Assembly: GCA_028714075.1 (NCBI GenBank)
Contig: JAQTMZ010000002.1
Span: 124,001 to 188,000 of the forward strand
Direction: 5' to 3'
DNA from: Gallionella sp.
Lineage (GTDB): Bacteria; Pseudomonadota; Gammaproteobacteria; Burkholderiales; Gallionellaceae
Length of the DNA: 64,000 bases
Part shown: positions 792 to 24,444 of the stretch, in pieces
Layout of the letters: every line of letters begins with the position of its first letter
How positions within the stretch are numbered: the stretch's first letter is position 1
Position numbers and translations under genes: made by a program
The notes under the pieces: generated by a model
Told to the model about the DNA's origin: nothing
Databases searched by the model: none
What the model saw: only the letters and a program-made list of their open reading frames with translations

Positions 792-920
792 TGTGAGCCA
801 TCACAAGTGGTTAAGAAAACTCCGCTCAGATTTATAAAAATACTACATAAGTAAACAAGGGAAATTCTATGAGTTGATGAGAGTAATTTTACGTTTCTAT
901 AAGTTATTGATAATAGATAC
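792..920. repeat. Transposon left end with three spaced TnsB-binding-like sites
   Basis: Starting at TGTGAGC (792), three copies of a motif close to CAYAAGTAAATGAGAA can be seen: CACAAGTGGTTAAGAA at 803, ACATAAGTAAACAAGG at 845 and TATAAGTTATTGATAA at 898. The AAGT cores lie at 805, 849 and 901, so spacing is about 44 and 52 bp. This resembles the widely spaced left-end sites of Tn7. The binding role is inferred. Confidence 0.7.
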
Positions 921-963
921 AACTTGCCACTTGAAGTGCTATTTTGCTGTGCTAGCATGGGGT

Positions 964-1635
964 ATGCCTGTTAGAAAAATTCCAAAAAATTACATGTCCT
1001 CGACTGGAGTTTTTTCCAGCCAAAAGAACGGGCGGTCACTCGGCTGCGAGTCGCTGCTTGAGCGCGATTTGATGATACTACTTGAGTTTGACGATACAGT
1101 TGAGCGCTTTGAGGAACAGCCAGTCAAGATTTCATTCCGCATTAATGGAAAATCAAGACGATCCTACGTCCCCGATATTCTCATTCATTATCTTCCTTCG
1201 CCAACAGGCGAAACACCGCACCCAGTCCTAGGCGAAGTAAAGCATACCGATCACCTGAAAAAACATAGGGCCAAATACAAACCAAAGTTCGAGGCAGCCG
1301 CACGTTATGCTGAAGAACACGGTTGGGAGTGGCGCATTTTTACGCAAAAAGAGATTCGCACCCCCTACCTCGACAACCTCAAATTTCTGCGTGAATACCA
1401 CAGTTCAGACCCTGACATTGCCCTACAACATGAAGTCATCAGTTATTTGCAGAATGCCCGTAGCCCGGTAACGGTCGAATCGTTGCTAAATAAGCTGTGC
1501 TCCACCGATGATAGAACGCTACGGATATCCCCTGCCATCTGGCATCTGGTCGCCACCAAATGCATCGTCACCAATCTGCAAAAACCTTTGGGCATAAAAA
1601 ACAAGCTGTCACTATCGAAAGAGGTGATCTCATGA
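964..1635 (+). CDS. tnsA: TnsA-like transposon endonuclease
   Basis: A 223-residue protein of the TnsA family, the subunit that cuts the non-transferred strand so that the element moves by cut and paste. The restriction-like catalytic set is visible: E29 in GCESLLE, D71 in YVPDIL and E91-V-K93 in GEVKHTD, followed by a C-terminal winged-helix-like region. The start at 964 is chosen because homology begins at MPVRKIPKNY; upstream in-frame ATG codons at 874 would put coding sequence into the transposon end sites. The stop overlaps the tnsB start as ATGA, so translation is probably coupled. It forms the first gene of a four-gene transposition operon. Confidence 0.9.
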   Translation: MPVRKIPKNYMSSTGVFSSQKNGRSLGCESLLERDLMILLEFDDTVERFEEQPVKISFRINGKSRRSYVPDILIHYLPSPTGETPHPVLGEVKHTDHLKKHRAKYKPKFEAAARYAEEHGWEWRIFTQKEIRTPYLDNLKFLREYHSSDPDIALQHEVISYLQNARSPVTVESLLNKLCSTDDRTLRISPAIWHLVATKCIVTNLQKPLGIKNKLSLSKEVIS

Positions 1636-3545
1636 CACAACCATCCTCTCCGCTGTTAAACCTTTCCAAGGGTGAGTTGGTTAATTACAACGGGCAGGAA
1701 TACGTAGTATTGAAGCCCATCGATCTCACCAAGGTGTTAGCTAGAAACACCAGCTCAAAAAACACCGAGGTGCTGGAGATAAAACATCTATCTCAATGGT
1801 TCGTAACGCAGGATAAACATAAAAAAGATGAGCGGAAGGATATCGATCTTTTGGATGTTTCTGAAGAGGACTGGGAAGAAGCGAAGCTTAAATTAAAAGC
1901 TATTGTTCCGATGCTGGTTGTACAAGAGCGCGGATCCGGTCTGGTTGACCGTATTTCGCAAGAAACGGGTTATAGCGTGCCGACGCTATACCGGTTTCGC
2001 AATATCTATAAAAGCAGTGGATTACTGTCATCGCTACTTCCGACCAAACGCGGAGGTGGCAAAGGTAAGGGCAGAATCAGCAAGGAAGTTGAAGCAATCA
2101 TTGCTGACACACTGGAGAATTTTTATCTGACCGAGCAGAAGCCAAGTATCGAAGCGACGGTAGAAGAGATACGCCGGCTCTGTGTAAATGCCAATTTACC
2201 CAAGCCGCATTGGCAAACAGTCAAAAATAGAATCGATTGGAAATCTGCAAGAGAGCGCTTTGAAAGACGTGAAGGAAAACGCGCAGCGCGGCAACTATTC
2301 GATCCTAATGAGGGATCTGTGCCAAACGCCGGCTGGCCGCTTGCCTTGACGCAAATCGACCATACGCCGCTACCGCTGATGATTGTGCATGACGTGAGTC
2401 GGCGCTCGATAGGTCGCCCATGGGTGACATTCAACATTGATGTCTACAGCCGCATGATCACGGGTATGCATCTGTCGCTGGAAGCACCTTCTGCTATGTC
2501 AGCCGGAATGTGCCTGTCTCACTCCATCCTTCCGAAAGAAAAGTGGCTCACCGAAGATATAGGGCTACCCGATGTGGAATGGCCGTGCTGGGGGGTGATG
2601 GGCATATTGCACATGGATAATGCTCGTGAGTTCCGTGGCAACATGATTAAGGACGCATGTCTGGAGTACAACATCGATCCTCAGTTCAGGCCCGTCAAGA
2701 CGCCAAACTATGGCGGTCATATCGAACGTTACATGGGCACTGCATCCGAAAAGCTGAAAAGGCTCGAAGGCGCAACATTTTCCAATCCAAAAAAACGTGG
2801 TGAATACGATTCAGAAGATCGTGCAACGATGACGTTGCATGAGCTGGAGAGGTGGTTGGTCTTATTCATCGCCAAGTATCACCGTTCGCCACATGAAGGC
2901 ATCAATGGGGAATCGCCGATAGATCGTTACCGCAAGGGGTTGTTAGGCGGGGATGGCAGGTTGCCACGTGGGCTGCCGGCCCGTCGTTTGGATGAAGAAA
3001 AAGTCAGAATCGACTTCATGCCTTTCATCGAGCGCACGGTGCAGAGTTATGGTGTTGTCATCGACGATGTGTATTATTTTGCCGATGTTCTGCGGCCTTG
3101 GGTAAATGCTCCTGATTCAAAGAATCCAAAGCTGAAAAGGTTGTTTAAGTTCCGGCGCGACCCGCACGACATCAGTCGGCTGTATTTTTTTGACCCCAAC
3201 TCAAAACGTTATTTTGTTATCCCATATCGTAATAGAAGCCTGCCACCGATCAGCCTATGGGAATTTAGGGACGCACACAAAAGGGCTATGGATGCAGGAG
3301 TGAAGGATATTAATGAGCGAGTCATCTTCGAATATGCAAATAAGCAACAAGCTTTACAGAGCGATTCGGCGCTAAAAACCAAGGTTGCCCGCCGCAATGA
3401 TCAGCGTAAGCGGGAACATGCCAAGGTACGCCAAAAACGTGAGAAAGATTTGCCAAAGGTAACTAAAACCGAGGCCCCTGCCATGCCGCCAGTAATTCCA
3501 GGATACGACCCCAACAGAACTTCGTATTTCGAGGATGAGGAATAA
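1632..3545 (+). CDS. tnsB: TnsB-like DDE transposase
   Basis: A 637-residue Mu/TniA/TnsB-type transposase that binds the repeats at the element ends and joins them to target DNA. An N-terminal helix-turn-helix region (residues about 95-215) precedes the integrase core with the DDE triad D243 (TQIDHT), D329 (HMDNAREF) and E365 (GGHIERYMGT). A basic, helical C-terminal tail (residues about 560-637) probably contacts TnsC. The ATG at 1632 has an AGAGGTG ribosome site and overlaps the tnsA stop by four bases; a longer frame from 1560 lies wholly inside tnsA. The gene ends two bases before the tnsC start. Confidence 0.95.
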   Translation: MTQPSSPLLNLSKGELVNYNGQEYVVLKPIDLTKVLARNTSSKNTEVLEIKHLSQWFVTQDKHKKDERKDIDLLDVSEEDWEEAKLKLKAIVPMLVVQERGSGLVDRISQETGYSVPTLYRFRNIYKSSGLLSSLLPTKRGGGKGKGRISKEVEAIIADTLENFYLTEQKPSIEATVEEIRRLCVNANLPKPHWQTVKNRIDWKSARERFERREGKRAARQLFDPNEGSVPNAGWPLALTQIDHTPLPLMIVHDVSRRSIGRPWVTFNIDVYSRMITGMHLSLEAPSAMSAGMCLSHSILPKEKWLTEDIGLPDVEWPCWGVMGILHMDNAREFRGNMIKDACLEYNIDPQFRPVKTPNYGGHIERYMGTASEKLKRLEGATFSNPKKRGEYDSEDRATMTLHELERWLVLFIAKYHRSPHEGINGESPIDRYRKGLLGGDGRLPRGLPARRLDEEKVRIDFMPFIERTVQSYGVVIDDVYYFADVLRPWVNAPDSKNPKLKRLFKFRRDPHDISRLYFFDPNSKRYFVIPYRNRSLPPISLWEFRDAHKRAMDAGVKDINERVIFEYANKQQALQSDSALKTKVARRNDQRKREHAKVRQKREKDLPKVTKTEAPAMPPVIPGYDPNRTSYFEDEE

Positions 3546-3546
3546 T

Positions 3547-4446
3547 ATGGACAGTTCTTATCCGCATCTAGGCAAGGAAGCGCTCAAGCAAATCGATCTG
3601 CCTGACAAAGACCGTATCTACGCAATTCAGGCCGGTACTTGGATTCTATATCCGCGCGCCAAGCAGATATTAGCGCGGCTGGAGGAGTTGCTTGCATATC
3701 CGCGCATTCACCGGATGCCTAACATGTTGATCGTGGGGGCAAGCAACAATGGCAAGACAAATATCCTGCACCATTTTGCGGAAAAGCATCCGCATAACCC
3801 TAATCCAGAGGGTGATTACTCCATCATCCCGGTTTTGTTTGTTCAGGCACCAAAGAAGCCGGACATAAATCATTTTTACGACCTGATTCTGCGGGCTATC
3901 GGGCAACCTTACGCTATTCGTGCACGTGATGCGGATAAAGAGCGTGAGGTAGAGGATGTACTAAAAAATATCCAGCTAAAAGTGCTCTTGGTGGATGAAA
4001 TTCAACAAATCATGGCAGGTGGACAGGTCAAGCAGCAGGAATTTCGCAACGGATTAAAAGGGCTTGGGAATGATCTGAAGATTAGTATCGTGTGCGCCGG
4101 TGTTGAAGAGGCATTCAACACATTCAATACCGATCCGCAGTTATCCAACCGCTTTGAGCCAGAATTTTTGCCGAAATGGGAGCTAGTTGATGAATATGGG
4201 GATTTACTCAACAGTTTTGAGCGAAAGCTTCCGTTGAAAAAACCTTCAGGTCTGCGCAGTACGGTGATCATTGCACAGAAGGTGCTATGGATGAGCGAGG
4301 GTATCTTAGGCGAAATACATGAAGTGTTGAAGCGAGCAGCCGTATTGGCGATCAAGAAGCGAACAGAGCAGATAACGATAGAGATTTTGGAGGGCATCAA
4401 ATGGACGATGCCATCCAAGCGTAAGGTGGCACCACCATCAGCCTGA
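3547..4446 (+). CDS. tnsC: TnsC/TniB-like AAA+ transposition regulator
   Basis: A 299-residue AAA+ ATPase of the TniB/TnsC group, which links the target selector (TniQ/TnsD) to the transposase and gives target immunity. Walker A is GASNNGKT (residues 64-71) and Walker B is VLLVDE (146-151), with the usual downstream arginine-rich helical lid. The ATG at 3547 is preferred because the GAGGA sequence upstream is a good ribosome site; an ATG at 3535 inside tnsB would add four residues. The next gene starts after one base, so the three downstream units are tightly coupled. Confidence 0.93.
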   Translation: MDSSYPHLGKEALKQIDLPDKDRIYAIQAGTWILYPRAKQILARLEELLAYPRIHRMPNMLIVGASNNGKTNILHHFAEKHPHNPNPEGDYSIIPVLFVQAPKKPDINHFYDLILRAIGQPYAIRARDADKEREVEDVLKNIQLKVLLVDEIQQIMAGGQVKQQEFRNGLKGLGNDLKISIVCAGVEEAFNTFNTDPQLSNRFEPEFLPKWELVDEYGDLLNSFERKLPLKKPSGLRSTVIIAQKVLWMSEGILGEIHEVLKRAAVLAIKKRTEQITIEILEGIKWTMPSKRKVAPPSA

Positions 4447-4447
4447 C

Positions 4448-5458
4448 ATGACCAACGCTTCACAGCTTTGGTTGTATCACCCCAAACTGCTCCCTGATGA
4501 GCTGCTATCCAGTTGGCTTGTGCGCATTGCTCATGGCCATGACATGAAGCTGCAAACGTTCTGCCGCCTTTCTCTGGGGAAAGGCCAAGAAATGTGGTTC
4601 AGGGACATTGATCGTCAAGCGCCGGATTGGTTGGTGCATGCGCTGTCGGAGCATACTGGCGTTGGTGCTCGTGAGATAAAACGCTCCAGCCTACTAGCAT
4701 ACAAAGGTGTGTTATATCGTCGCTACCACTGGAGTGGTCACCAGTATTGGTTGCTGCCACTCAATATGGCGGATGCACGTTATCAGCATCATGGGATGCA
4801 ATTCTGTCCGCTATGTTTGGTTGAGGATAAACAGCCGTATTTCAGGAAACGCTGGCGGGTGGCGTTCTATACGATGTGTACCAAACATCATTGCATGGTG
4901 CATGACCGGTGCCCTTCGTGCGGTGCAACGGTGGCCTTTCATCGGCGCGAGATGGGTAAATTTAGCCAGGTTGATGCAGGATCAATCACCCAGTGTCATG
5001 CGTGCGACTTCGATTTGCGCAAATCGCCAGTAACTGCGCCAGTGATCTATGATAATTCGGCCTACCAGACATGGCTGCCGGCACTCCGCATACTTGAAGG
5101 TTGCAGTGAGGTTGAAGCGCGCTACGGCTTGGGGTTCTTTGCGGTGCTGCACCAGTTATGCAAGATTATGCTGATGCATTATTCGCATGTTCATTTGCGG
5201 CAATACGTGTCAGGCAAGATTGGTACGCCGGAAATCCAGTTGCACCCAAAACATAAGTCGTTTGAGCACTATTCATTGAAAGAACGGCATGTAGTGATTC
5301 AATTGGGGATGTGGCTGCTGACGGATCCAGAGGCCAGAATCATTGACGCCTGGCGTAATAAGGCAGTGCGTTATAACGTGCTAAAGAAGGATTTTCAGTT
5401 GAGGCCGCGGTGGTATCGGGAAATTATGGAAAAGTGTACTGATTGGCAAGAAACGTAA
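4448..5458 (+). CDS. tniQ: TniQ-family target-selection protein (short, operon copy)
   Basis: A 336-residue TniQ-family protein. The N-terminus has the family signature (YHPKLLPDELLSSWLVRIA). Zinc-ribbon cysteines follow at FCPLCL (about residue 118), CPSCG (about 155) and CHACDF (about 178), with a conserved HHCMVHDRCP stretch. TniQ proteins bind DNA or a partner and pick the insertion site. This copy is encoded with tnsABC, whereas a second, longer TniQ lies at the far end of the element. In two-TniQ elements of this family one copy usually serves the fixed attachment site and the other an alternative route; which does which here is not shown by sequence. Confidence 0.92.
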   Translation: MTNASQLWLYHPKLLPDELLSSWLVRIAHGHDMKLQTFCRLSLGKGQEMWFRDIDRQAPDWLVHALSEHTGVGAREIKRSSLLAYKGVLYRRYHWSGHQYWLLPLNMADARYQHHGMQFCPLCLVEDKQPYFRKRWRVAFYTMCTKHHCMVHDRCPSCGATVAFHRREMGKFSQVDAGSITQCHACDFDLRKSPVTAPVIYDNSAYQTWLPALRILEGCSEVEARYGLGFFAVLHQLCKIMLMHYSHVHLRQYVSGKIGTPEIQLHPKHKSFEHYSLKERHVVIQLGMWLLTDPEARIIDAWRNKAVRYNVLKKDFQLRPRWYREIMEKCTDWQET

Positions 5459-5678: not shown

Positions 5679-6311
5679 CTACTTCAACTTAAACTTCACC
5701 AACCCTACTGGAACCCGTAATAATTGAGCAATATGCAATACAGCATCATTTTCAGGAAACCGGATTGATAGATCGGTATGTATCTTTTTTAACATCGGTA
5801 TCCAACTATCTGGCACAAGTAGTTCAGCGGCTCCCCACCATGCCACTTGGTCGGCCATGGTTTGATTGTCTATTAAAACCCCAAGAGCCAAACTTTCAAG
5901 TAATTCGTTTACTTCAACCAAAGTTTTTGTTGATGACAATCCGTTATCGATAGTATGGCAATGCATCAATTCTTTTGCAGCTAAAAACCTCGCTTCACAA
6001 TAATTATCGCTAGCGGAAACTACGATTCTTGCTGACTGCTTTTCATCTTTAGAATACTTTTTAAAATATGCTGGTAAAAATGTAGCTTCAGTTTCTGGCC
6101 AATCAATTTCCGTATCAAGTATTTCTTTTGTGAATGTTAATAGGCTGTACTGATCTGGCTCAAAAATAGGAATAGGCCTTATCTCGCTTCCTTTAGTGGG
6201 ATTTATCTGCAAATTGTTTTCTTTTATCAATTTGGCCTGCAAATTTTTTGCCGTTTTTGTGATTTCTTGAATATGATATTCAATATGGTTTTGTTCTAAT
6301 TTTTTTGTCAT
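5679..6311 (-). CDS. ImmA/IrrE-like (DUF955) protein with altered metal motif
   Basis: A 210-residue protein. Residues about 110-185 resemble the ImmA/IrrE metallopeptidase fold: RFLAAKELMHC sits where the HExxH helix normally lies, and VAWWGAAELLVPDSW matches the family's second helix ending in ELLxP. The first zinc histidine is a lysine (KELMH), so peptidase activity is doubtful. Members of this family cleave or sense repressors and often act in toxin-antitoxin pairs or mobile-element control. The start codon follows a strong hairpin terminator by only 11 bases, so expression probably depends on read-through from the upstream small gene. The fold assignment is moderately sure; the function is not. 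Confidence 0.55.
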   Translation of the reverse strand: MTKKLEQNHIEYHIQEITKTAKNLQAKLIKENNLQINPTKGSEIRPIPIFEPDQYSLLTFTKEILDTEIDWPETEATFLPAYFKKYSKDEKQSARIVVSASDNYCEARFLAAKELMHCHTIDNGLSSTKTLVEVNELLESLALGVLIDNQTMADQVAWWGAAELLVPDSWIPMLKKIHTDLSIRFPENDAVLHIAQLLRVPVGLVKFKLK

Positions 6312-6321
6312 GGCAATAATA

Positions 6322-6348
6322 AAAAAGGTGCCATTTCAGCACCTTTTT
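6322..6348 (-). terminator. Hairpin terminator/attenuator between two cargo genes
   Basis: A perfect 10-bp stem, AAAAAGGTGC with its complement GCACCTTTTT, closes a 7-base loop. It lies between the stop of the small gene at 6375 and the start of the ImmA-like gene at 6311. A T-rich arm on each side makes it bidirectional. Its position allows termination of most transcripts before the downstream gene. Confidence 0.8.
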
Positions 6349-6374
6349 ACCTTTCAATCACAAAATTAATCGAT

Positions 6375-6599
6375 TTATAAATGGGCGGCTTCAATCACCT
6401 TCAAAACTTCTGTTGGAATAACAGAGGTTGGGTAGGGTGGTGTTTTTTTCACATAACCAGCACTAATCACAGCTTCGGCTGCCAACAGTTCGTTTTTAAT
6501 GGCCGTGCTAGTTACACCCTTTCCTGCCATTACGGCAAATTTAATATCAACAAGACCACTACCCTGCTGCGCCTCAAACCAAGTTTGAAAATTGTTCAT
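6375..6599 (-). CDS. Small uncharacterised protein, partner of the ImmA-like gene
   Basis: A 74-residue protein starting MNNFQTWFEAQQGSG. It has an AGGGG ribosome site seven bases before the ATG, and a terminator immediately after it. It has no signal peptide or membrane segment; the sequence (KNELLAAEAVISAGYVKKT) looks helical. It sits just upstream of the ImmA/IrrE-like gene inside the same inverted repeats, which suggests a two-gene module, possibly regulator plus effector. I do not recognise the family. Confidence 0.5.
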   Translation of the reverse strand: MNNFQTWFEAQQGSGLVDIKFAVMAGKGVTSTAIKNELLAAEAVISAGYVKKTPPYPTSVIPTEVLKVIEAAHL

Positions 6600-7033
6600 T
6601 TATATACCCCTAGCTAAAACTAAATTTTAGCCAATGCTCATTTATAATTATTATTAGCACAAGCTGCCCCCAAAACTTTGTGCAAATTTCTATGACTTTC
6701 TACTTTGCTACCTATTTCCCTATCACACAATTAATTGCGTGTCAACGGCAAGAATGGCTATATTAATGCCCTTATTCTTAACAGTCAACATAAAAAATTA
6801 GCAGTTACTTAACACTATTACTTATACAAGAGCTATTGCTTAAAAAAGATTATCGGCAAAGCTTTTAGTTCCTTTATAGCTACAGTATCAACCATGGGGT
6901 ACTCTTTTCATAGAACGTGGTTAGGGGAAAATTCCCAGCTATTCCCTGATTCGGCATTAATGCGCGCGCACTATGACGGGATACTCCGAGCGAATAATTC
7001 AAACTGAGACACTACCCACATGTTCCTGATACC

Positions 7034-7060
7034 ATAACCGTTCCGCTTCGGAACGCTTAT
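7034..7060. repeat. 12-bp hairpin with CTT loop
   Basis: ATAACCGTTCCG and CGGAACGCTTAT pair with one mismatch around a CTT loop. It lies 18 bp outside the right inverted repeat of the nested element, in a gene-free stretch. It is followed by no T-run, so a structural role or an old terminal repeat is more likely than termination. Confidence 0.5.
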
Positions 7061-7132
7061 GCTGCCTAGTCAGTATTCAACCTAGTTTCTGGTATATGTC
7101 TTTAAATACTGCCTGGAACTAGAAATTCGCGA

Positions 7133-7299
7133 CTATAGGCCAAGCCTGCTTGATACTTCTGCTATCGGGTAACGGTTCTCGGTGATTTGCTTCACCGCTC
7201 CAATCCTGAATTCTTCCGGGTAACGCTTGCTGCTCATAAACACCTCCTTGTAGCCCTAATTTTAGGCTGAAAGGTGTCTACTGATTCAGGGGCGATTCA
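7133..7299 (-). pseudogene. Fragment of an IS3-family insertion sequence (start of orfA)
   Basis: On the minus strand, an ATG at 7237 with a GGAGGTG ribosome site opens MSSKRYPEEFRIGAVKQITE and continues to a stop at 7133 after 34 residues. This is the N-terminus of the IS3-family OrfA helix-turn-helix protein, cut off before the helix-turn-helix is complete. The 62 bp upstream end in TGAATCGCCCC (7289-7299), a typical IS3-type terminus. The rest of the insertion sequence is missing, so this is a dead left end. Confidence 0.8.
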
Positions 7300-7480
7300 C
7301 CCACAATACGTTGGTAACTGGGAACCCCCAAAGCTATAGGTGGTTCATCAGCTAATTAGAGATGGTATAGCTAACCTGTCCATCGCCAGCTGGCCAAAAG
7401 AAAATGCAAGCAGAATGTAATAGCAGGCGCTTTTCTAACACCTCAATTGCTTTAGCGATTGTATCAAAGGCATTATTTAG
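7300..7480. other. Gene-free stretch
   Basis: Between the IS3 remnant and the patatin-like gene no reading frame, repeat or hairpin stands out. It is AT-rich and probably decayed insertion-sequence DNA plus the 3' flank of the patatin gene. Confidence 0.4.
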
Positions 7481-9556: not shown

Positions 9557-9640
9557 ACCCACGCCTCTTTGATATTAAGAACCTAATTGAGCTTAAATTT
9601 TAGAATCGCTTTATCATGCCTCTGGATACTTAGAGCTCTA

Positions 9641-10759: not shown

Positions 10760-10908
10760 ATACCCCCCCATTGGCAGCAACCTCTCTTTGGAGATGCTGC
10801 TGCGCGCAAATTGTGATAAAAAACACCCGTATGCCATTCTTGATGCTTTAGCTGTACCTCTCACCAATTTTATAGTTGCCATGAGCCATTTCGTTGCTCT
10901 ATCCAATG

Positions 10909-14110: not shown

Positions 14111-14154
14111 GGAAGGTATATGATTGAAGCATAATCGAAATATAGGGGGGTGAC

Positions 14155-17100: not shown

Positions 17101-17640
17101 GCCAACTTCGCCAGCCAGAGCCGCAACGGCATTCTTTCCAAAGCAGATATCGTCTTGATCAACTCGCATACGCTAGCGGCAGGCCAGGGGGAACGCTACG
17201 GCACCAAGGACGCCGCCATCGTGCTTGCGCCTTCGTCTTTGGAAGATCGCGTGGGGGCCGATCTGCTGCCCCCCTCCAAGGTGGTCGAGCAGAACCTGCC
17301 GGTACGGCTGACCATGCTCCTGGCCTGTAAGACTGCAGGTGGAATATCTGCAGGCCATGAGCAGCCATTTGCAGGTTTGGTAAACGCCTTCTTCTTTTCT
17401 GGTGCTGACTCAGTCCTGGCGACGGTACGGCTCGTGAATTCGGAGGCGAGCGAAGATCTGGCGGTCAATTTTCTGCGCCATGTGAGGGATGACCGCATGT
17501 CCAGCGCCGAGGCGCTGCAGCGCGCCAGCACCGAGGTCCGTTGCCCGGACGACAAGAGTCCATGTGCGGCTGGCAAAAAGTTTGTGTGGGCACATCCTGC
17601 CTATTGGGCTCAATTCATGCTGGTCGGCTCAGGCCGTTAG
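14155..17640 (+). CDS. Exported CHAT-domain caspase-like protease with helical repeat region
   Basis: A 1161-residue protein. It begins with a signal peptide (MQRYFTFLVFSCACLLASIL plus PVTHAAA), continues with a long alpha-helical repeat-rich region (residues about 30-700, TPR-like in places), and ends in a CHAT domain (about 780-1161). The catalytic pair is visible: histidine in IVLINSHTLAAG and cysteine in LLACKTAGG, the latter followed by FAGLVNAFFFSGADSVLAT. CHAT proteases are relatives of caspases and separase; most studied ones are cytosolic. Here the signal peptide predicts export to the periplasm or beyond. The next gene begins 10 bp after the stop, so the two are probably one operon. 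A GGGGGG-rich ribosome site precedes the ATG. Confidence 0.9.
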   Translation: MQRYFTFLVFSCACLLASILPVTHAAASLTPEPTDRSVGLKSLARDISKLTKTQSQVLQDAGDDLHVLAFYLQGDFETIANKPDPNKDDFASIGHMFWELAIVAPGIYRSLLADPSIRGRLFESEKSFQTSIFADSRSNTHAKALLEQIRLLAENMVAERPDKKAERIDNDFHLSRKLSKISSQQELDAALQNLGEALGSANELPVSRNHAAVVLVLAAKFLHGHLIAEAKIKELEFGKYLMRYLGDGHRWQAYDLFRHFATLEPDDAAMAAKLGEVFLQTHCKSASSADYVCLNTLSLLQFQYQILHDPSHLRKTRARLDEALKQNLKLKRVLSQADVPGKKDSVVELQSLIPRLGNLGGEYWFEDNLRISNELNAVSYWLIKAAGKNPQQLVRMLSSQQDSFFSPKIESELLMIMTMAYRRAIELEDGKVAQLAASMMRSEFEKKAEGMSSNNPKLLQVRVSFDIMELLALQISNNLPQSRRIVQRIKSNIAPFLMQRRAVDDGIMTTCPPPAEEDGFLGDSAQPDFFESVHNLITQLEIQWDIKEGKQISLQTINTALSLDIRDLFRPQPSGASRQLNNNQEEPPEPLSPAQFIIQWEKVYRPAFVGNTDKLRQAATTIKCLLGQPSLEMKLSADLINKRSTEKAELGKAIFHLIEDSGTLAQGRVRVADDDFRLLQLVSVLQAHTGISAAAARSVFPSEVREQVRQVEADLGNLKRNIDSIQSMVNFVKQGGGPQGGMLSTLMQVAIAYPDAYAKYSNLRQQSITTLDGITKVLGSDEAAVLFSSAGEKLLAVVVRKSGGTIIPIKVSVSTLQATVSQLLASLRLPSDRIHSLPSKFRADAAWKVYQQVFQPFEDSLAGASTVYLVGGEVLADLPFQTLLTAQPPPQDKVDFSTYRRLSWLGDRFAFVSLPSMHSLRRLSERHRQDTAAKLWGVGEPAISATALQAMKLVGIPDTAHLLVRAGKPDDPQPLLGARATYANFASQSRNGILSKADIVLINSHTLAAGQGERYGTKDAAIVLAPSSLEDRVGADLLPPSKVVEQNLPVRLTMLLACKTAGGISAGHEQPFAGLVNAFFFSGADSVLATVRLVNSEASEDLAVNFLRHVRDDRMSSAEALQRASTEVRCPDDKSPCAAGKKFVWAHPAYWAQFMLVGSGR

Positions 17641-17650
17641 AGGGGGTATC

Positions 17651-19423
17651 TTGATCAAGATCGCCGGATTTCGTCGCATCGCTGTACATGCCGTTTGCAT
17701 TGTACTGTTCTGTTGTGGATGGCAGACGCCTTGCAACAGTGCCGTCAATGAAAAGCCCTCATTAACTGGGGCTTCAGCTCAGTCGATGTCTACGGCCGAT
17801 ATGTTGGCATCGATCACGGCCATACGTCCCAAATCGAATGCCGAATCGATATTGCTGCTCAAGGCGAAGACCGAGGCGATGGAGCGGCTCGCGACCGATA
17901 CGGAAGAGATGGATGAGAAGGTGGCGCTGGCGTTTTGCATATCGGCCATTAACGACGCCAAGAAGCTATTCGGCGACCAAACACCCAAACTCGTTCCTGT
18001 GCTGCGGGTGGCCGCGCAGGTGGCGCTGCGATTCAACCAGGCCTCGCGTGCCGTGGAACTTCTGCTGAAGGCCGAAAAGATTTCAGAAATGGCGATCGGT
18101 ACTGACGATCCCGCTGGCAGATTCATCCAGGCGGAACTAGCCCAGGCGTACGCACAAGCCGGCCAAGCGAGCAAGGCCAAGGCAGCGAAGGATAGGGCCG
18201 ACTATCTAGAGAAGATTTCAGTGGCCGCAATCGAAGGCGGAGATACGCTGGGCAGCAACGAGGTCTCAGATTCCAATGCCTTGTACCAAATCATCCCGGT
18301 GTTCTTTAAGACCACTCGCGTAATGACGAGCCATCGTGACTCGCACGTGTCCTTTGGAACGAGCCGCGACGACCAGAATGATCACTACGGTGTTTCGTAT
18401 GTGAGTGTGCCCAAGAAGCGAGATATCGGCACGATCCCGCACCCATCGGTCTTCCGATTAGACTTGCGTACTGATCCCAGCCGTCATGTTATCCTGAAGG
18501 AAATTGTCGAGATCAGCGACCAGAATGATTTCTGGAAAACGATCAAGCGCCGACTTACATCGACGGTTCGCAAGGAGGCGCTGATCTATATCCATGGATT
18601 CAATCAGTCGTTCCAGGATGGAGTGGAAACGGCTGCCACACTGTCGGCTGATCTCGAAATCGACGGCGGGGTCGTGTCCTTCAGTTGGCCATCGCGAAAC
18701 AACTTGCTGCTCTATTCGGCGGATATTGATGAGGCTACAGCCGACCGCAATCGCGATGCCCTTTGTGATCTCCTGTCCCATCTCGCCGCCGAAACTGGCG
18801 CCCAACATGTTTATGTGATCGCGCATTCGATGGGAAACCGCTTGCTGCTGGAGGCATTGAGACTGATGGGCAACACGGAGAGCCAGCCTCCGATCGACAA
18901 ACTGATCTTCGCTTCACCCGACATGGAGAGCGCAGATTTTACCCGTGCAGTCGGCAAAATCGGAGCGCTTTCTAAGCGAATGACCCTTTACACTGCCAAC
19001 GGTGACTTGGCGCTGAACCTGTCTAACAAACTCAGAGGTGTTTGGTCGCAAGCGTCGCGTGCGGGCGATCGCGATGGTGGAGTTAAGCCGACGGAGTTGC
19101 TGGATGTGGTGGATGCGTCGAAGGCCAAGGCCGACCTCTTGGGGCATTCCAATTTCATGCACCTTGCCAAGGATGATCTGCGAGCCCTGGTCTGGTTCGG
19201 ACTGCCCGCCGAAAGACGATGTATCCTCATGGGCAAGCGATCAGAAGGCTGGCGCTATAATCCGGCCTCTCCTTGCACATCCGAAGCATTCACTCTGGCG
19301 TCATTATACTTCCGGCGCTATGCCGATGGCGTTCAAGCGCTGTCTCAACTCAGTTCTCTTGGCGACTCCCGGTCACGCTCTGCGAGCATCATCCTACGAG
19401 CCATGTTGGTGGCGAAGAAGTAG
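17651..19423 (+). CDS. Exported alpha/beta hydrolase (DUF900 type) paired with CHAT protein
   Basis: A 590-residue protein with a hydrophobic N-terminal export signal (HAVCIVLFCCGWQTPC, possibly lipid-modified), a helical TPR-like stretch (residues about 80-180) and a C-terminal DUF900 alpha/beta hydrolase domain. It has the strand-loop ALIYIHGFNQSF, the nucleophile elbow AHSMGNR and downstream acid/His regions. The start is taken as TTG at 17651 because an AGGGGG ribosome site lies seven bases upstream and the export signal begins there; the open frame continues upstream inside the CHAT gene. Substrate unknown. Tight spacing with the CHAT gene suggests they act together in the envelope. Confidence 0.83.
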   Translation: MIKIAGFRRIAVHAVCIVLFCCGWQTPCNSAVNEKPSLTGASAQSMSTADMLASITAIRPKSNAESILLLKAKTEAMERLATDTEEMDEKVALAFCISAINDAKKLFGDQTPKLVPVLRVAAQVALRFNQASRAVELLLKAEKISEMAIGTDDPAGRFIQAELAQAYAQAGQASKAKAAKDRADYLEKISVAAIEGGDTLGSNEVSDSNALYQIIPVFFKTTRVMTSHRDSHVSFGTSRDDQNDHYGVSYVSVPKKRDIGTIPHPSVFRLDLRTDPSRHVILKEIVEISDQNDFWKTIKRRLTSTVRKEALIYIHGFNQSFQDGVETAATLSADLEIDGGVVSFSWPSRNNLLLYSADIDEATADRNRDALCDLLSHLAAETGAQHVYVIAHSMGNRLLLEALRLMGNTESQPPIDKLIFASPDMESADFTRAVGKIGALSKRMTLYTANGDLALNLSNKLRGVWSQASRAGDRDGGVKPTELLDVVDASKAKADLLGHSNFMHLAKDDLRALVWFGLPAERRCILMGKRSEGWRYNPASPCTSEAFTLASLYFRRYADGVQALSQLSSLGDSRSRSASIILRAMLVAKK

Positions 19424-19868
19424 CAGCGAACTGAAATGTTGGGGGAATAGAGAACACCCGTTAGACGTTTCGTATGCCACGCAAGAATACCCCACAGCGG
19501 TGCGAACTGACGTACTGCATAGTTGGCACTTAACGAAGGAAATAAGCTAGGCATGTGGACAGCATGCTCCGCAGAGGATCGGGAGCACGTAACCGCCGAT
19601 GGGGAGGCAGTCGTTCGGCCAGCAATCAAAGCCAACGGCAGCTTGAGGATTCATTGCTGCCCCACCCAACCTGAAGGAGAATGACAGCTAAGGCCGAGAA
19701 ACGGCCTTTCGTGGCTACATCATTGACCGTCTGCTTCATGGCGCTAAGATATGGGGGCTTGGCTTGTGTAATAGGTAACGTTGTGCAAGGTTTTGAATAA
19801 CAAGTTGGCAAAGTGCTAGACTTCTAACCACTGCATGGGGCAGTAGCTAATTACAGGGAGACAACAAC
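19424..19868. other. Gene-free stretch with one terminator-like hairpin
   Basis: No credible gene is seen in this 445-bp gap. A 7-bp hairpin (AAGGCCG / CGGCCTT, loop AGAAA, at 19690-19708) followed by TTC may end transcription from the CHAT operon. The last 60 bp hold TTGGCA and a GGGAGA ribosome site for the HU gene. Confidence 0.5.
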
Positions 19869-20153
19869 ATGAACCGCAAAGAATTGATTGATGCACTGGC
19901 TGGTAAAACAGGCTGCACCAAGGCTTGTGCTGATCGTAGCATCGGGTCACTAATTGAAATCATCACTGCCACTCTGAAGAAGGGTGACAACGTGGCCTTA
20001 GTCGGCTTCGGTACTTTTGAAGTTCGTAAACGTGCCGCACGCAATGGACGCAACCCGGCAACAGGTGCAGCATTAAAAATCAAGGCTTCCAAGGCTCCAG
20101 CATTCAAGGCCAGTGCTACTCTCAAAGCTGCTGTGAATGGTAGCAAGAAGTAA
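19869..20153 (+). CDS. HU-family DNA-binding protein
   Basis: A 94-residue histone-like HU/IHF protein starting MNRKELIDALAGKTGCTK. The DNA-bending arm is present (GFGTFEVRKRAARNGRNP, then GAALKIKASKAPAFKAS). It probably dimerises and bends DNA. The gene lies inside the transposon, has its own ribosome site (GGGAGA) and is followed by a hairpin at 20166. A plasmid- or transposon-borne HU may help assemble the transposition complex or silence cargo; that is inference. Confidence 0.93.
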   Translation: MNRKELIDALAGKTGCTKACADRSIGSLIEIITATLKKGDNVALVGFGTFEVRKRAARNGRNPATGAALKIKASKAPAFKASATLKAAVNGSKK

Positions 20154-20165
20154 TTGATTCGATAG

Positions 20166-20196
20166 CAACCATCGGGGTGCCTTGGTGGTTGTTTTT
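20166..20196 (+). terminator. Terminator after the HU gene
   Basis: CAACCA and TGGTTG pair around a 14-base loop and are followed by TTTTT, 13 bp after the HU stop codon. The stem is short, so strength is uncertain. Confidence 0.55.
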
Positions 20197-20288
20197 GAAG
20201 GGCAGCTTACGGGCGGAGTGACCTACAGAAAAGCTGTACGCTACCTAGAGCCACGTAGGGGTGGTCACCCATCCTTGTTCTTTGCCTA

Positions 20289-20543
20289 TTACCTTGGCGG
20301 CACCAGCAATCGCCATGGCTCTACATTTAGCGCATCAGCAATTTTCTCGATATTGCTCAGTGCAACATTCCATATGCAACGCTCCACCGCTGAGATGTAG
20401 GTTCTGTCTAGATTGCAGCGAAATGCAAGCTCTTCTTGTGATATTCCATTTTTGAAGCGAAGCAAGCGGATATTGTAGGCGAGCGCACCCCTTAAAGTTT
20501 TTTCAAACTGACTCGGTATTGGTTTGGCAACGCGCTTTGGCAT
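20289..20543 (-). CDS. Small XRE-family helix-turn-helix regulator
   Basis: An 84-residue protein that is essentially one Cro/C1-type helix-turn-helix domain: RLLRFKNGISQEELAFRCNL, DRTYISAVERCIW and SNIEKIADALNVEPWRLL. It probably represses promoters within the element. The ribosome site is weak. It faces the HU gene, converging on it. A broken relative lies at 13567-13662. Confidence 0.85.
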   Translation of the reverse strand: MPKRVAKPIPSQFEKTLRGALAYNIRLLRFKNGISQEELAFRCNLDRTYISAVERCIWNVALSNIEKIADALNVEPWRLLVPPR

Positions 20544-20660
20544 GGCGCGTAGAATCCACTTATGCGGCGTTTATTACCACGGCGTTTGCTTCTCTAATAA
20601 TATTTAGTTAAAGTGCCGGTAGCGTGGCAATTTCGTTCATTCTAAAAAGGGAAAAACATC

Positions 20661-20855
20661 GTGCGTTTAATTCTTGCAATTGTCTTACCTTGGCTGCAAT
20701 TTTTCACTATTGGGCGACCAATTGCGGGGATTATTTGCTTGGTTTTACAACTCACCCTAGTCGGATGGATTCCCGCAGCAATCTGGTCGGTGTATGCCTT
20801 GAGCCAGTACAAAACAGATAAGAAAATTGAAGATGCCCTTTCCAGCCGCCGATAA
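20661..20855 (+). CDS. YqaE/Pmp3-family small membrane protein
   Basis: A 64-residue protein with two membrane segments (LILAIVLPWLQFFTIG and GIICLVLQLTLVGWIPAAIW) linked by a short loop, the layout of the YqaE/Pmp3 (UPF0057) family. These proteins are linked to membrane potential and stress tolerance. The start codon is GTG with AAAGGGA upstream. It ends 32 bp before a zinc-ribbon protein gene and may share its transcript. Confidence 0.8.
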   Translation: MRLILAIVLPWLQFFTIGRPIAGIICLVLQLTLVGWIPAAIWSVYALSQYKTDKKIEDALSSRR

Positions 20856-20887
20856 TTCTTCACCGTTCAGGAGTTAAGGAGCCCGCC

Positions 20888-21310
20888 ATGTCATACAAAT
20901 GCCCAGTTTGCAAAGATGAAGGAACACAGAAAGTTTCAATAGCCTATGAATCTGGAATTTCTGTTGTCGAATCAACAACAGTAGGCCTGGCAGCAAGTAT
21001 TGGGAGTGGCCCCACTATGTTGGGAGTTGCCAAAACGCGGGGAACTTCGCAAACCGTGGCGGCTATGCGGCTTTCCCCACCAGAAAAAATATCTTACCGA
21101 AAATTATTTTATGCCTATGTGTTCCCAAGCAGCGTCACAGATTTCATGAAGCGGCTTGTTCCTGGCCTTCCGAAATCAAGCGTTGTCAGGCTATACCGTG
21201 ATCTTCGTGCAGCACAAACCTTCAATAATCACGAATATCCCAAACTAATTGAAGAGTGGCACAATCAATTTGTCTGCTTGAGGTGCGGAAGCAGATTCAT
21301 GCCTGATTAG
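20888..21310 (+). CDS. Zinc-ribbon protein of unknown function
   Basis: A 140-residue protein with one cysteine pair at the N-terminus (YKCPVCKDEGT) and one at the C-terminus (FVCLRCGSRF), which together could bind one zinc. The middle holds a low-complexity GLAASIGSGPT region and a helical segment. The ribosome site AAGGAG is strong. I do not recognise a family with a known job; the layout resembles small cargo proteins that sense or bind nucleic acid. Confidence 0.7.
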   Translation: MSYKCPVCKDEGTQKVSIAYESGISVVESTTVGLAASIGSGPTMLGVAKTRGTSQTVAAMRLSPPEKISYRKLFYAYVFPSSVTDFMKRLVPGLPKSSVVRLYRDLRAAQTFNNHEYPKLIEEWHNQFVCLRCGSRFMPD

Positions 21311-21479
21311 TGAATACTTGCCTTGAGGGCGAAGCTGTACCGATTAACCACCGCTTTTCTAGGTGGATTGGCGTGGTACGACTCACGCCAGCGGGCTAAA
21401 GGCATGGTCAGAAAGAAGGAAAAGGATAAAAAAAGGGGCAACCTTGCAAAGTCAACGCTGATAAGACCGGAGGTTTTCC

Positions 21480-21944
21480 ATGAGTGCCAATTTCGACAAT
21501 GCAGCCAGGCAAGGGCTGAAGGATGCGATCCCTTCTTCTCTGGATGACATTATTCGCGCCAATAGAGATATTTGTTCTCTGTATCTTTCAACACCGGCTG
21601 AGCTTGGTGAATTGCCAGCGATTGTTGAGTTGATGGGAGATCAGAAGCATGTAAGTGCTGTATTAGATGAATGGAGATTTATCTGTCTAAATAGGACAGG
21701 GTACGGCGGAAAATCACACTTTTTGACAGGCATTCACACAACTCAAAACTGTTATTGGGCAACGTCAGAAGTGGTTGCCGTTGATCTGGAGCGTGGATTT
21801 GTACTAACCCAAAGTGGAAGTATTTATCAATTAGGCACTAAAGGTGTCGGCGAACCAGAAGAAGGGATTCTGCTTCACATTTGCGCCCAATTCCATAATT
21901 GGGGTTTCGGAAAATTGTTAGGTGTACCGCATATATTCTACTAA
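21480..21944 (+). CDS. Hypothetical 154-residue protein, SMI1/KNR4-like flavour
   Basis: The ATG at 21480 has a CGGAGG ribosome site, so this is likely real. The sequence lacks a signal peptide or membrane segment. Segments such as TSEVVAVDLERGFVLTQSGS and LLHICAQFHNWGFGKLLG recall small immunity-type alpha/beta proteins, but no motif is decisive. It may be an orphan immunity or cargo protein. The family is not recognised. Confidence 0.55.
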   Translation: MSANFDNAARQGLKDAIPSSLDDIIRANRDICSLYLSTPAELGELPAIVELMGDQKHVSAVLDEWRFICLNRTGYGGKSHFLTGIHTTQNCYWATSEVVAVDLERGFVLTQSGSIYQLGTKGVGEPEEGILLHICAQFHNWGFGKLLGVPHIFY

Positions 21945-21947
21945 AGG

Positions 21948-22106
21948 TATGAAAGCCCAGCCCTTTCTGGTTAGACCAGAAGCACAATACCCATTATGAA
22001 CAAATTAAAAATGAATTTCTGCATGGATATCAGGAAGGGTGGTTTTTATTCTGGCTGCCCTTCGCTGGCTTTAAGCGCGCGTATTTTGCTTTATGGTGCT
22101 CACACA
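21948..22106 (+). pseudogene. C-terminal gene fragment without a start
   Basis: Between two genes the plus strand reads KPSPFWLDQKHNTHYEQIKN and continues to GFKRAYFALWCSHK and a stop, about 52 residues with the look of a real protein end. An in-frame stop lies immediately upstream and no start codon is suitable. It is probably the tail of a deleted gene. Confidence 0.35.
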
Positions 22107-22117
22107 AGTGAGGTTAT

Positions 22118-22627
22118 GTGCCAACAGTATTCTTTGACACTGAATTTACTACCGCCAGTGCGGATGGCATTCGTAAGCTAATCAGCATCGGCTGCATTGC
22201 CCAAGATGGCCGTGAGTTCTATGCGGAGCTTTCCGACACGTACCATGAAGGGTTGTGCTCGGATTGGGTCATACAGAACGTCCTGCCATTACTCCAAGGT
22301 GGCGAGTGCCGCATGACCGAGGCCGAGCTTGCGATTCGCCTCAAGGAATGGGTTGAGGGTCTGGGAGGCAAGGAGGTGATTTTCCGTAGCGACTGTCCAG
22401 GACTGGATTGGCCTTGGGTTGAGCAGCTTTTTCAATTCTATGATTGTTGGCCGAAAAATTTGCGTCAGAAGTGCGGGGAAATCGAATTTAACACCGGCCA
22501 GCAGCAGCGATTCAACACGGGGCTCAAGGACTACTGGAAAATCAACATCGCCAGACAGCACCATGCATTAGTAGATGCCCGGAGCCTGCTGTTCGCATGG
22601 AAGCTCGCCATTCGGAGAGGTGTGTAA
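22118..22627 (+). CDS. DEDDh 3'-5' exonuclease, Rv2179c-like
   Basis: A 169-residue exonuclease of the DnaQ/RNase T superfamily. The motifs are FFDTEFT (D and E of ExoI), the aspartate in RSDCPGLDW (ExoII) and HHALVDAR (ExoIII, DEDDh type). The compact size and motif spacing match the Rv2179c-like exoribonuclease group. It probably trims RNA or single-stranded DNA ends. The start is a GTG with GAGGT upstream. It sits in the cargo beside small unknown genes, so a role in defence or element upkeep is possible but unproven. Confidence 0.83.
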   Translation: MPTVFFDTEFTTASADGIRKLISIGCIAQDGREFYAELSDTYHEGLCSDWVIQNVLPLLQGGECRMTEAELAIRLKEWVEGLGGKEVIFRSDCPGLDWPWVEQLFQFYDCWPKNLRQKCGEIEFNTGQQQRFNTGLKDYWKINIARQHHALVDARSLLFAWKLAIRRGV

Positions 22628-22661
22628 TGCCCTGCAATTGTAAAATGTAGAGGGCAGAAGC

Positions 22662-22913
22662 ATGTGCGCTTCACTTCTCATCGTTGTCTTTCTCTCCGCC
22701 GCGTCGAGTGCAAACGCGGCGACTTGTACTTTCTCAAAGTGGAACACCTACCTCGGTTCGCCGCTGCTGCGACACGAGCAGACTTCGACCTATGTCTTTG
22801 CCACACTGCATGTGAAGGTAGATGCAGACGGAGCACCCAATGCTTATCACCCAGCCGATATCGGTCTCCACTGTACCAAGAGTACTGGATTTAAAGGCAT
22901 CGACTTCCCGTAA
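22662..22913 (+). CDS. Truncated exported chitosanase-like (GH75-like) protein
   Basis: An 83-residue product with a signal peptide (MCASLLIVVFLSAASSANA) and then CTFSKWNTYLG and DADGAPNAYHPADIGLHC. The last segment matches the N-terminal signature of secreted glycosidase-like proteins related to fungal-type GH75 chitosanases, whose full length is well over 200 residues. This copy stops right after that motif, so it is probably a truncated, inactive gene. It ends 40 bp from the convergent second tniQ. Confidence 0.55.
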   Translation: MCASLLIVVFLSAASSANAATCTFSKWNTYLGSPLLRHEQTSTYVFATLHVKVDADGAPNAYHPADIGLHCTKSTGFKGIDFP

Positions 22914-22953: not shown

Positions 22954-24327
22954 TTATTCACTAATATCCGCTTGCGTCGGTTGCTGATCTTGCTTGTGTT
23001 TACTCTTTGTTTTTTCTTTATCGCTGTCTATTTTTGCCATGGGCTTTCTAGATTTTGACCAAGTGATTATCTTTGATAGCCGCTTGTTCTTTGCTGCCTG
23101 AAGGTCGCGCTCCCACTCCTGCACAAACTTTTGATGCCACTCCCGCGCTGACTTCTTTGCGGCAATTTGTTTCTGTATTTTGTTGTAGATGGTTCCCTCA
23201 GTCATAAACTCTTGGACTTCATATGTGCTGACGGCGCGCCCCATTAGCTTTCGCAATATCTGTGTTGCATTTATGATTTCTTCGTTCGAGTGTGTATCTA
23301 TTGCAGGCTGTCTACTGCTCACTGGCACCGGAACGGCTGAAAGCCAATATGACTCATCAATACTTTCAAACAACGTGCCATAGTTAAGCTTGGACTTCTC
23401 AGCATAAGCAACCAATCGTGTAGGCCACTCCCCCATCAGCCAATTTGCAAGACACAAGATGATTGCCCGATCTGCAGCTTGCCAATTTTCAATGTCTGCA
23501 TCTTTGGATGGTTTAAGCGGTTTTGCTTGGTATGGCGCAAACTCAATACCACTCATTTTCCCAACGCACTTCATGCGATCAGTGCTCTCTATCCATGCAA
23601 CAAGAGACCGGGCAACACTGTAAAAAACATCCAAATAGGCTCGTGAGTTCACGTATCCTTGATCTGGGATATCGAATGCACCGCGATTGATACCGGCCAG
23701 AATGTTTTCTTGAATGGATAACGCCATGTCGAGTAGATTGCCGCCCCATGAGGGAGATTGCTGCATGATGCTGACATCGCCACCGCATGACCAGCACGTT
23801 CTGATTGGATCAGTAATGTTGATGCTCTTCTGATTTACCGGTTGCATGTGGCTGTATGGGCGACTGCAATGCGGACAGATGCTGCGAAGCGGTATCCGGT
23901 GCTTAGTGCAGATTGCGTAATATGCGTAGCGCCAATTTTTTCGATAATACGGAGTTTTGTCAGTACGCAGACATTCTGGACAATAGGCCATGCCGGCGGT
24001 GTAATCGTTGATCTTGGTATTTACTGTAATGGCAGGAATAATCCAGCGGCTGATGCCTTTCCCACTTTGGCTGAAAACATAACCTTCCTCAGCCAAAAGT
24101 GATGTTTCTCGAATTCGTTCAACTGGAACCCCAGTTCCCTCGGAAAGCCCTTGAAGCAATAAATCATCAGGAGAGCGATCGGCTACTCTTAGGTTTGGTT
24201 TCTTGATATAGAGCACTTCGGAACAAAACTTTGTGGCGCTCATCCCACATTCTGAAGCAATCCGAATTAGCCAGGAAGACAATAATTCGTCTTCTTTTGG
24301 CTTTGGATGGGTCGCCCAGATTGGCAT
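22954..24327 (-). CDS. Second TniQ/TnsD-like target selector beside the attachment site
   Basis: A 457-residue TniQ-family protein, about 120 residues longer than the operon copy. It keeps the family start (THPKPKEDELLSSWLIRIAS) and zinc-binding pairs CPEC (about 116), CPHC (about 155) and CWSC (about 183). It then adds a long C-terminal part with a predicted helical DNA-binding region and a strongly basic tail (SKSRKPMAKIDSDKEKTKSK). TnsD is likewise a TniQ protein with a long C-terminal extension that reads the attachment gene. The gene lies 117 bp from the right end, next to lipA, far from tnsABC, and points inward. I infer that it recognises the lipA 3' region. Confidence 0.85.
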   Translation of the reverse strand: MPIWATHPKPKEDELLSSWLIRIASECGMSATKFCSEVLYIKKPNLRVADRSPDDLLLQGLSEGTGVPVERIRETSLLAEEGYVFSQSGKGISRWIIPAITVNTKINDYTAGMAYCPECLRTDKTPYYRKNWRYAYYAICTKHRIPLRSICPHCSRPYSHMQPVNQKSINITDPIRTCWSCGGDVSIMQQSPSWGGNLLDMALSIQENILAGINRGAFDIPDQGYVNSRAYLDVFYSVARSLVAWIESTDRMKCVGKMSGIEFAPYQAKPLKPSKDADIENWQAADRAIILCLANWLMGEWPTRLVAYAEKSKLNYGTLFESIDESYWLSAVPVPVSSRQPAIDTHSNEEIINATQILRKLMGRAVSTYEVQEFMTEGTIYNKIQKQIAAKKSAREWHQKFVQEWERDLQAAKNKRLSKIITWSKSRKPMAKIDSDKEKTKSKHKQDQQPTQADISE

Positions 24328-24384
24328 GAAAAATTAGCAGAAAACCGTTTGCTAGAGCACGAATGCACAGTTTATCAATGAAAA

Positions 24385-24444
24385 ACGACTTGTGTAAATT
24401 CTCATTTACTTGTGTAGTTTCTCATTTACTTATGGGTGCTCACA
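24385..24444. repeat. Transposon right end with three tandem 20-bp TnsB-binding-like sites
   Basis: Read inward from 24444, TGTGAGCACCCATAAGT is followed by two near-identical 20-bp units, AAATGAGAAACTACACAAGT and AAATGAGAATTTACACAAGT. The AAGT cores (plus strand ACTT) lie at 24428, 24408 and 24388, exactly 20 bp apart. The abutting arrangement contrasts with the spaced sites at the left end, as in Tn7. The outermost 19 bp are also lipA coding sequence. Confidence 0.88.

Follow-up and report, generated by a model that had tools for sequence, protein, structure and literature searches.

How does a Tn7-like transposon come to lie in the very end of a housekeeping gene, and which of its proteins sends it there? 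This question is raised by a 23,653-bp element (positions 792 to 24444) in a 64,000-nucleotide stretch of a Gallionella sp. genome ("the window," contig JAQTMZ010000002.1, whose own positions are used throughout), with an insertion point that falls within the last codons of lipA, the gene for lipoyl synthase. The element is a genuine transposon, inserted at an attachment site that is equally genuine and in repeated use but that we did not find in print, and it encodes two proteins of the TniQ family, TniQ1 and TniQ2. We consider it probable that this Tn7-like transposon moves by cut-and-paste and that the 3' end of lipA is its attachment site, selected via TniQ1. The evidence for this account is comparative throughout: the ends, the duplications, the reuse of the site, the spacing, the orientation, and the association of the site with TniQ1 were all read from sequence.

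Boundaries of the element and its junction with lipA

The element begins with TGTGAGC at position 792 and finishes with GCTCACA at position 24444, the same bases at which an earlier note, made from the DNA alone, had placed its ends. Read inward, the two ends are identical at 7 of 7, 19 of 27, and 21 of 40 positions, so that the gapless similarity over about 27 bp that the earlier note had described is present, at only about 70% identity, while the perfect ATTAC duplication that it had seen outside both ends was found as described (Table 1). TnsA, TnsB, TnsC, and TniQ occur together, each with a Pfam match, and together with the TGT/ACA ends and the 5-bp duplication these mark the element as Tn7-like, in agreement with the earlier identification. 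The tnsA, tnsB, tnsC, and tniQ1 genes point inward from the lipA-distal end, which is the "right" end by the convention quoted in PMC11406308, and tniQ2 lies at the lipA end. Two 20-bp repeats in the lipA-side end are likely TnsB sites.

The last five codons of lipA and its stop codon are at present supplied by the lipA-side transposon end. When the flanks were joined in silico by a script, LipA ended in ..EQAQRAGVI followed by its own TAA, as had been claimed for the excised state, with a small cytochrome-c-like open reading frame (named by eye, as in the earlier note; positions 336 to 701, minus strand) beyond the far end of the element. Stop codons in all three frames occur within 30 bp of the terminus in 8 of 10 lipA-side ends. 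The corresponding figures are 3 of 8 for distal ends and 16% for shuffled sequences, and the excess is suggestive only, because several of these ends are close relatives. The lipA-side end of the window element and its relatives may be shaped as a cap for the target gene.

Reuse of the lipA site in other genomes

Searches for TniQ and LipA in genomes from the window's family and order, with each junction then inspected, yielded a Tn7-like insertion or a remnant of one at lipA in 13 genomes from eight families of one order (the window, here G000, together with G243, G727, G786, G776, G710, G817, G235, G013, G189, G835, G899, and G872). Both ends were located in 11 of these, and the 5-bp duplications are identical in 10 of the 11, a replication that excludes a chance origin of the duplication. 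In G710, G235, and G727 one end is on a different contig from the other, and identity of the duplications is in several relatives partly given by construction, because their distal end was located by seeking the duplication behind CA. Independent support for the relatives' ends comes from end-to-end similarity, which amounts to 16 to 26 of 30 bases and is weakest in G013 and G835 (16/30) and G817 (17/30); in G235, G013, G835, and G899 the ends start with TGA. The G727 end was at first taken as eroded, which was ruled out by its identical GCTGG duplication. The G776 locus reaches the contig end, and all that is left in G786 is the lipA-side end with part of TniQ2. In this G786 relic (L059, 6378 to 6700), no tns genes were found in the 9 kb inspected, and lipA stops on the TGA of the transposon's TGTGAGC.

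What is constant among these insertions is not the end of the protein. LipA tails behind ..AG vary among genomes, whereas the insertion follows the last of the RSS(Y/F) codons by 35 bp in 8 of the 13 loci and by 34, 36, 37, 38, and 29 bp once each; the 29-bp spacing belongs to G727 and is real, given its identical duplication. Since the G013 insertion falls behind the native lipA stop codon and that of the window before it, the distance is kept from the recognized coding sequence and not from the stop. Moreover, tnsA lies at the lipA-distal end wherever the tns genes and lipA could be joined, either by contig or by matching duplication. Site-specific, orientation-controlled insertion is thus evident from the 13 loci, and a TniQ-family protein would be what directs it.

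The site is empty in a sister genome, G014, where the gene downstream of lipA is the same as in the window, and in the four same-genus genomes first inspected (G115, G190, G251, and G281) lipA reaches its own stop with no transposon end behind it, as judged by eye. The earlier note had suggested looking for empty lipA sites in relatives and for other insertions at the same junction with different cargo, and both were found; none of the contrary findings it had named, such as close relatives with the same 23.6 kb, but no duplication, at other random sites, appeared. Its expectation that an empty lipA ends in GVI plus TAA proved too strict, because LipA tails differ between genomes, although the spacing from the RSS(Y/F) codons is kept. 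As for cargo, TnsA, TnsB, TnsC, and TniQ1 of the window are 73 to 77% identical to those of G243 (TnsB, 73%), and among the other proteins of the window element HU alone matched the G243 element, at 35%, apart from TniQ2 (36%).

In G013 (L094 at about 11440, and L111), the far end of the first element is directly followed by another lipA-side end that resembles the first and has the same orientation; elements appear to stack at lipA, with the newest adjoining the gene. In G243 (L023, G243:C1 at about 154.4 kb), some 240 bp of end-like sequence, perhaps a relic of an older insertion, separates the far end from the native DNA downstream of lipA.

Within the order sample, 16 of 399 genomes gave a TniQ match at an E value of ≤1e-60: eight with a lipA element (G000, G243, G235, G013, G189, G835, G872, and G899) and eight with a comM element only, while G000, G243, and G235 hold both. 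The window's family gave TniQ matches in 12 of 158 genomes, five at lipA and seven at comM only. In a class sample of 369 genomes, an E value of ≤1e-40 was passed by G000, G419, and G456 only; the latter two are comM cases, and lipA use is therefore seen within one order only. The other TniQ loci with a nameable site were all at comM; G297 had neither lipA nor comM alongside, and one locus, G266, was left outside the site count. A scan of IMG/VR with a TniQ1 profile found no relative, a scan of GTDB contigs with the TniQ2 pair returned one locus, which we take to be that of G727, and a plasmid search with TniQ2 gave 266 records, the best of them at 27% identity and none with at least 80% coverage. 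The window's own genome has a second, different Tn7-like element at comM (G000:C2, about 225 to 230 kb; L065), with tnsA adjoining comM.

The suggestion of the earlier note that lipA is an attachment site is borne out by this reuse in 13 genomes, and no description of lipA as a Tn7 site came up in the literature searched. The passages of PMC11406308 name as sites glmS, yhiN, comM, plasmid resolution sites, parE, tRNA genes, guaC, yciA, ffs, and rsmJ, and the terms lipA, lipoyl, and lipoate do not occur in these passages, which include the table of examples. Nor does lipA occur in the available main text of PMC10293859 or in the passages of PMC8649781, supplements lying outside this scope, and an open-access full-text search for Tn7-like, TnsD, or TniQ with lipA or lipoyl synthase gave no paper, although an entry in a supplementary table is possible. 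The lipA loci add a conserved housekeeping gene to the attachment sites of Tn7-like elements, and their junctions are resolved to the base in many hosts.

Association of the lipA site with TniQ1

Next, we asked which component of the element goes with the choice of lipA. In a TniQ tree, the 11 lipA rows fall on one side of a branch and the 15 comM rows on the other (support 96/100), as they did in an earlier tree of eight lipA and 14 comM rows (100/99), and quick trees of residues 1 to 150 and 151 to 336 taken apart (22 rows) gave the lipA branch 98 and 99; these trees omit the long-branch comM rows G737, G028, and G228, and G180 and G419 were never included. In contrast, on a TnsB tree of 10 lipA and 15 comM rows, omitting G737, G028, G228, G180, G419, and G899 (broken frames), the site label takes three changes, and a single lipA clade is rejected by the approximately unbiased test (P = 9.17e-08).

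The G710 element separates the two components most clearly. It is inserted at lipA with a GTTGC duplication on both sides, yet its TnsB is sister to that of the G735 comM element (100/99), its tnsABC DNA is 70.6% identical to that element, and its ends, by eye, look like the ends of its comM relatives. The DNA that starts directly after tnsC and runs through tniQ, by comparison, shares 76 to 79% identity with the lipA elements in the window and in G727, and its TniQ1 is 81% identical to that of the window. This TniQ1 was the only TniQ match in G710, and no TniQ2 was found there. G710 joins a backbone of the comM type to a tniQ of the lipA type at a lipA site, and we read its tniQ as having been swapped as one gene.

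A prediction fixed beforehand points the same way. The TniQ proteins of G835, G899, and G872, which score 469, 390, and 386 bits where lipA rows score at least 543 (all of them being in the profile) and comM rows at most 313, should lie within 60 kb of lipA, with its 3' end facing them. In all three genomes lipA was found there, at 7.7, 31, and 6.6 kb, on the plus strand with tniQ on the minus strand, and each has a lipA junction with identical duplications. An all-against-all comparison of six lipA elements, three of them incomplete, showed only TnsA, TnsB, TnsC, and TniQ1 recurring throughout. Taken together, these patterns support the view that lipA is used by several backbone lineages and that the site tracks the TniQ beside tnsC, not the transposase; TniQ1 is the best-supported candidate for the selector of lipA.

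Several observations weigh against this assignment. In the first TniQ tree, which included G737, G028, G228, and TniQ2 and in which G013 and G189 were still labeled unknown, the lipA rows did not form one group. G710 is the only clean break between the coupling of site and TniQ1 and the backbone, and the TnsB result owes most of its force to it; the other lipA TnsB groups are not firmly separated from each other. According to the passages of PMC10293859, a small TniQ without a C-terminal extension is a hub that needs another selector, and TniQ1 is small. The G243 duplications agree at three of five bases. Every locus in which TniQ2 was found, five in all and two of them remnants, has it next to lipA, and it could still have a part in the choice of lipA there. 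Finally, single-sequence AlphaFold models were unusable, with a mean predicted local distance difference test score of 33.1 for TniQ1 and 35.7 for TniQ2; a search of solved structures returned TniQ chains only, as partial matches.

Of the alternatives, the one that TniQ1 is an adaptor, with an unrecognized selector or a host protein reading lipA, survives best, though we regard it as unlikely. It has precedents in Tn6022, where a small TniQ works with TnsF, and in transposons associated with clustered regularly interspaced short palindromic repeats (CRISPR), as described in passages of PMC10293859 and PMC11406308, but only TnsA, TnsB, TnsC, and TniQ1 recur throughout the six lipA elements compared, three of which are incomplete. 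TnsF was not recognized in the lipA loci, which says little, because the same query recovered it in only 1 of 10 comM control loci.

That TniQ2, the longer protein and the one adjoining lipA, is a TnsD-like lipA selector, with TniQ1 as a hub or as the protein of another pathway, was our initial assumption, demoted to second place by the lipA insertions that lack TniQ2, and we now hold it to be rather improbable. Besides its place beside lipA, its 457 residues are within the size range tied to direct target choice in passages of PMC10293859, and the window has no detectable TnsE-like gene. However, in the lipA insertions of G710, G817, G235, G013, G189, G835, G872, and G899, the sequence inspected (covering only parts of the element in G899, G013, and G189) contains a TnsE-like gene but no TniQ2. 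G710 has TniQ1 but not TniQ2 in common with the window, and between the window and G243, both at lipA, TniQ2 is far less conserved than TnsABC and TniQ1.

Equally improbable, in our estimate, is that G710 arose by recombination between two elements already at lipA, which would make its TniQ1 uninformative on site choice. The second end in G013 indicates that stacking at lipA is possible, but such recombination needs a comM-type backbone to have reached lipA first through another lipA selector, and the three correct predictions are independent of G710. Loose insertion, with lipA as a merely tolerated spot, has nothing but the 29- to 38-bp spread of the spacing in its favor and is refuted by the replicates, namely 13 loci with constant orientation, a 35-bp spacing in eight of them, and identical duplications in 10 of 11.

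With TniQ1 as the selector, the mechanism would run as follows. TniQ1, alone or with a host factor, would bind and read the conserved stretch of lipA coding for the RSS(Y/F) motif and would recruit TnsC, which, by what is known of Tn7, would bring TnsA and TnsB bound to both ends. Insertion would take place some 35 bp downstream and in one orientation only, the end without tnsA facing lipA, and LipA would retain its conserved part and gain only a short tail, because the lipA-side end carries stop codons. A second pathway, steered by TniQ2, would lead to a different target, most likely mobile DNA.

The most interesting part of these results is the evidence for a short TniQ setting the address. 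In the natural swap, one tniQ on a comM-type backbone goes with lipA insertion, and if this reading is true, it would reveal the address-setting protein, would show that a small TniQ suffices with no large extension of the kind to which DNA reading is usually ascribed, and would offer a simple protein-guided, non-CRISPR route for retargeting studies. It is tempting to speculate further, as a possibility we put somewhat below even, that a TniQ of about 336 residues with neither a C-terminal extension nor a transposon-encoded partner reads DNA alone as a selector, that exchange of its 1-kb gene re-addresses a transposon from comM to lipA in nature, and that in the window lineage a second TniQ, unrelated by recent duplication, moved to the TnsE position and took over a plasmid-type pathway.

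TniQ2 and the position of TnsE

The tniQ2 gene starts 118 bp inside the lipA-side end in the window, 117 to 118 bp inside it in G727, G786, and G776, and 477 bp inside it in G243. At the same end, a TnsE-like gene starts 80 to 204 bp inside in G710, G235, G013, G189, G835, G872, and G899 and lies deeper in G817 and G243, so that 9 of the 13 lipA loci carry one; the name TnsE rests here on mutual similarity and on place in comM elements, there being no Pfam match. TnsE is almost universal in comM elements (passages of PMC11406308), while the window gave no TnsE-like match at an E value of 1e-3 or at 1e-2. A full TniQ2 is absent from 9 of the 11 lipA elements with TniQ1 in hand, and eight of these nine show at the lipA-side end a TnsE-like gene or, in the case of G727, the first 32 residues of TniQ2. 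In G727, tniQ2 (L041, after 10096) keeps its first 32 residues before an apparent insertion sequence interrupts it, shortly ahead of the contig end.

Because TniQ2 sits where relatives carry a TnsE-like gene, we infer that it is a second-pathway selector standing in the TnsE position. The simpler idea that TniQ2 replaces TnsE was dropped, since G243 has both; replacement can therefore be claimed only of the position and of the window.

Comparison with known Tn7-like systems

The closest relatives found are the Tn6022 family (AbaR-type, comM-targeting), which share the TnsABC-TniQ arrangement, carry a TnsE-like gene at the opposite end, and among whose comM elements the backbone of the G710 lipA element is nested. 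These elements split comM mid-gene, whereas the window element uses the 3' end of lipA and keeps the gene intact, and its tns genes, unlike theirs, lie at the end away from the target gene. It has TniQ2 in place of the Tn6022-type TnsE-like gene, and no TnsF was recognized with the weak query used. Of the marks of the Tn6022 family, the window element lacks the comM insertion and gave no TnsE-like match.

Compared with Tn7 itself, the window element is at lipA and not glmS, inside the last codons of its target gene, where Tn7 inserts behind the glmS stop, and its selector, at 336 residues, is smaller than TnsD of Tn7. Its tnsA-side end faces away from the attachment gene. In Tn7, the recognized site lies outside the right (tns) end, although relatives vary, according to the passages of PMC11406308. 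The likenesses to Tn7 (glmS, TnsABCDE; Tn7 as described in the same source) comprise TnsA, TnsB, and TnsC, a TniQ-family selector, TGT/ACA ends, a 5-bp duplication, a fixed distance from conserved 3' coding sequence, and a two-pathway layout.

Two TniQ-family proteins of unequal length are also found in Tn7017 (parE) and in dual TniQ-TnsD elements; dual loci, of which about 1,000 were counted, are described together with TnsE and TnsF in PMC10293859. The window element differs from these in that the evidence favors the shorter of its two TniQ proteins, rather than the longer, as the one that selects the site. It also differs in lacking the Cas effector genes or CRISPR array that define a CRISPR-associated transposon: Pfam gave no Cas family among the 20 proteins scanned, and no direct repeats of at least 22 nucleotides within 200 bp of each other were found between positions 5460 and 22950.

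Features and cargo of the element

Table 1. Features of the lipA-associated transposon and its flanks in the window
Feature	Positions	Strand	Remarks
Target-site duplication ATTAC	787-791		Side distal to lipA
tns-side transposon end, TGTGAGC...	792-850	+	Extent past the first ~30 bp is an estimate
tnsA	964-1635	+	PF08722 (4.5e-17), PF08721 (3.8e-08); start picked from relatives, mechanical open reading frame (ORF) starts at 874
tnsB, transposase	1632-3545	+	PF09299 Mu-transpos_C (4.6e-07); start picked from relatives, mechanical ORF starts at 1560
tnsC, AAA+ regulator	3535-4446	+	PF05621 TniB (5.6e-68)
tniQ1, 336 amino acids, proposed lipA target selector	4448-5458	+	PF06527 (3.5e-32); lipA group in TniQ trees; single-gene swap in G710
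Cargo region	5679-22913		ORFs listed below and small ORFs
Cargo, 210-amino-acid ORF	5679-6311		No Pfam match
Cargo, patatin-like	7481-9562
Cargo, LpxR	9641-10912
Cargo, DUF6765	12377-13465
Cargo, CHAT-domain protein	14155-17640
Cargo, DUF900 hydrolase	17489-19423
Cargo, HU	19869-20153
Cargo, HTH regulator	20289-20543
Cargo, DEDDh-like	22118-22627
tniQ2, 457 amino acids, proposed second-pathway selector	22954-24327	-	PF06527 (5.8e-25); starts 118 bp inside lipA-side end
lipA-side transposon end, terminal GCTCACA	24388-24444	-	Two 20-bp repeats, 24388-24407 and 24408-24427
lipA (lipoyl synthase), tail VSTHK transposon-encoded	24426-25382	-	PF04055, PF16881 LIAS_N; native coding part 24445-25382
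Target-site duplication ATTAC within lipA	24445-24449
Predicted recognition segment in lipA	24445-24512	-	35 bp from insertion to RSSF plus conserved block around the RSSF codons; from base conservation and spacing

PADLOC recognized no defense system among ten cargo proteins, giving only small regulator-type matches and one weak DEDDh match; the patatin-like, LpxR, CHAT-domain, and DUF900 hydrolase proteins (positions 7481 to 19423) had no PADLOC match. Rfam gave no match over positions 700 to 24600. The cargo HU is kept in G727 (87% identical) as well as in G243, though the other cargo differs.

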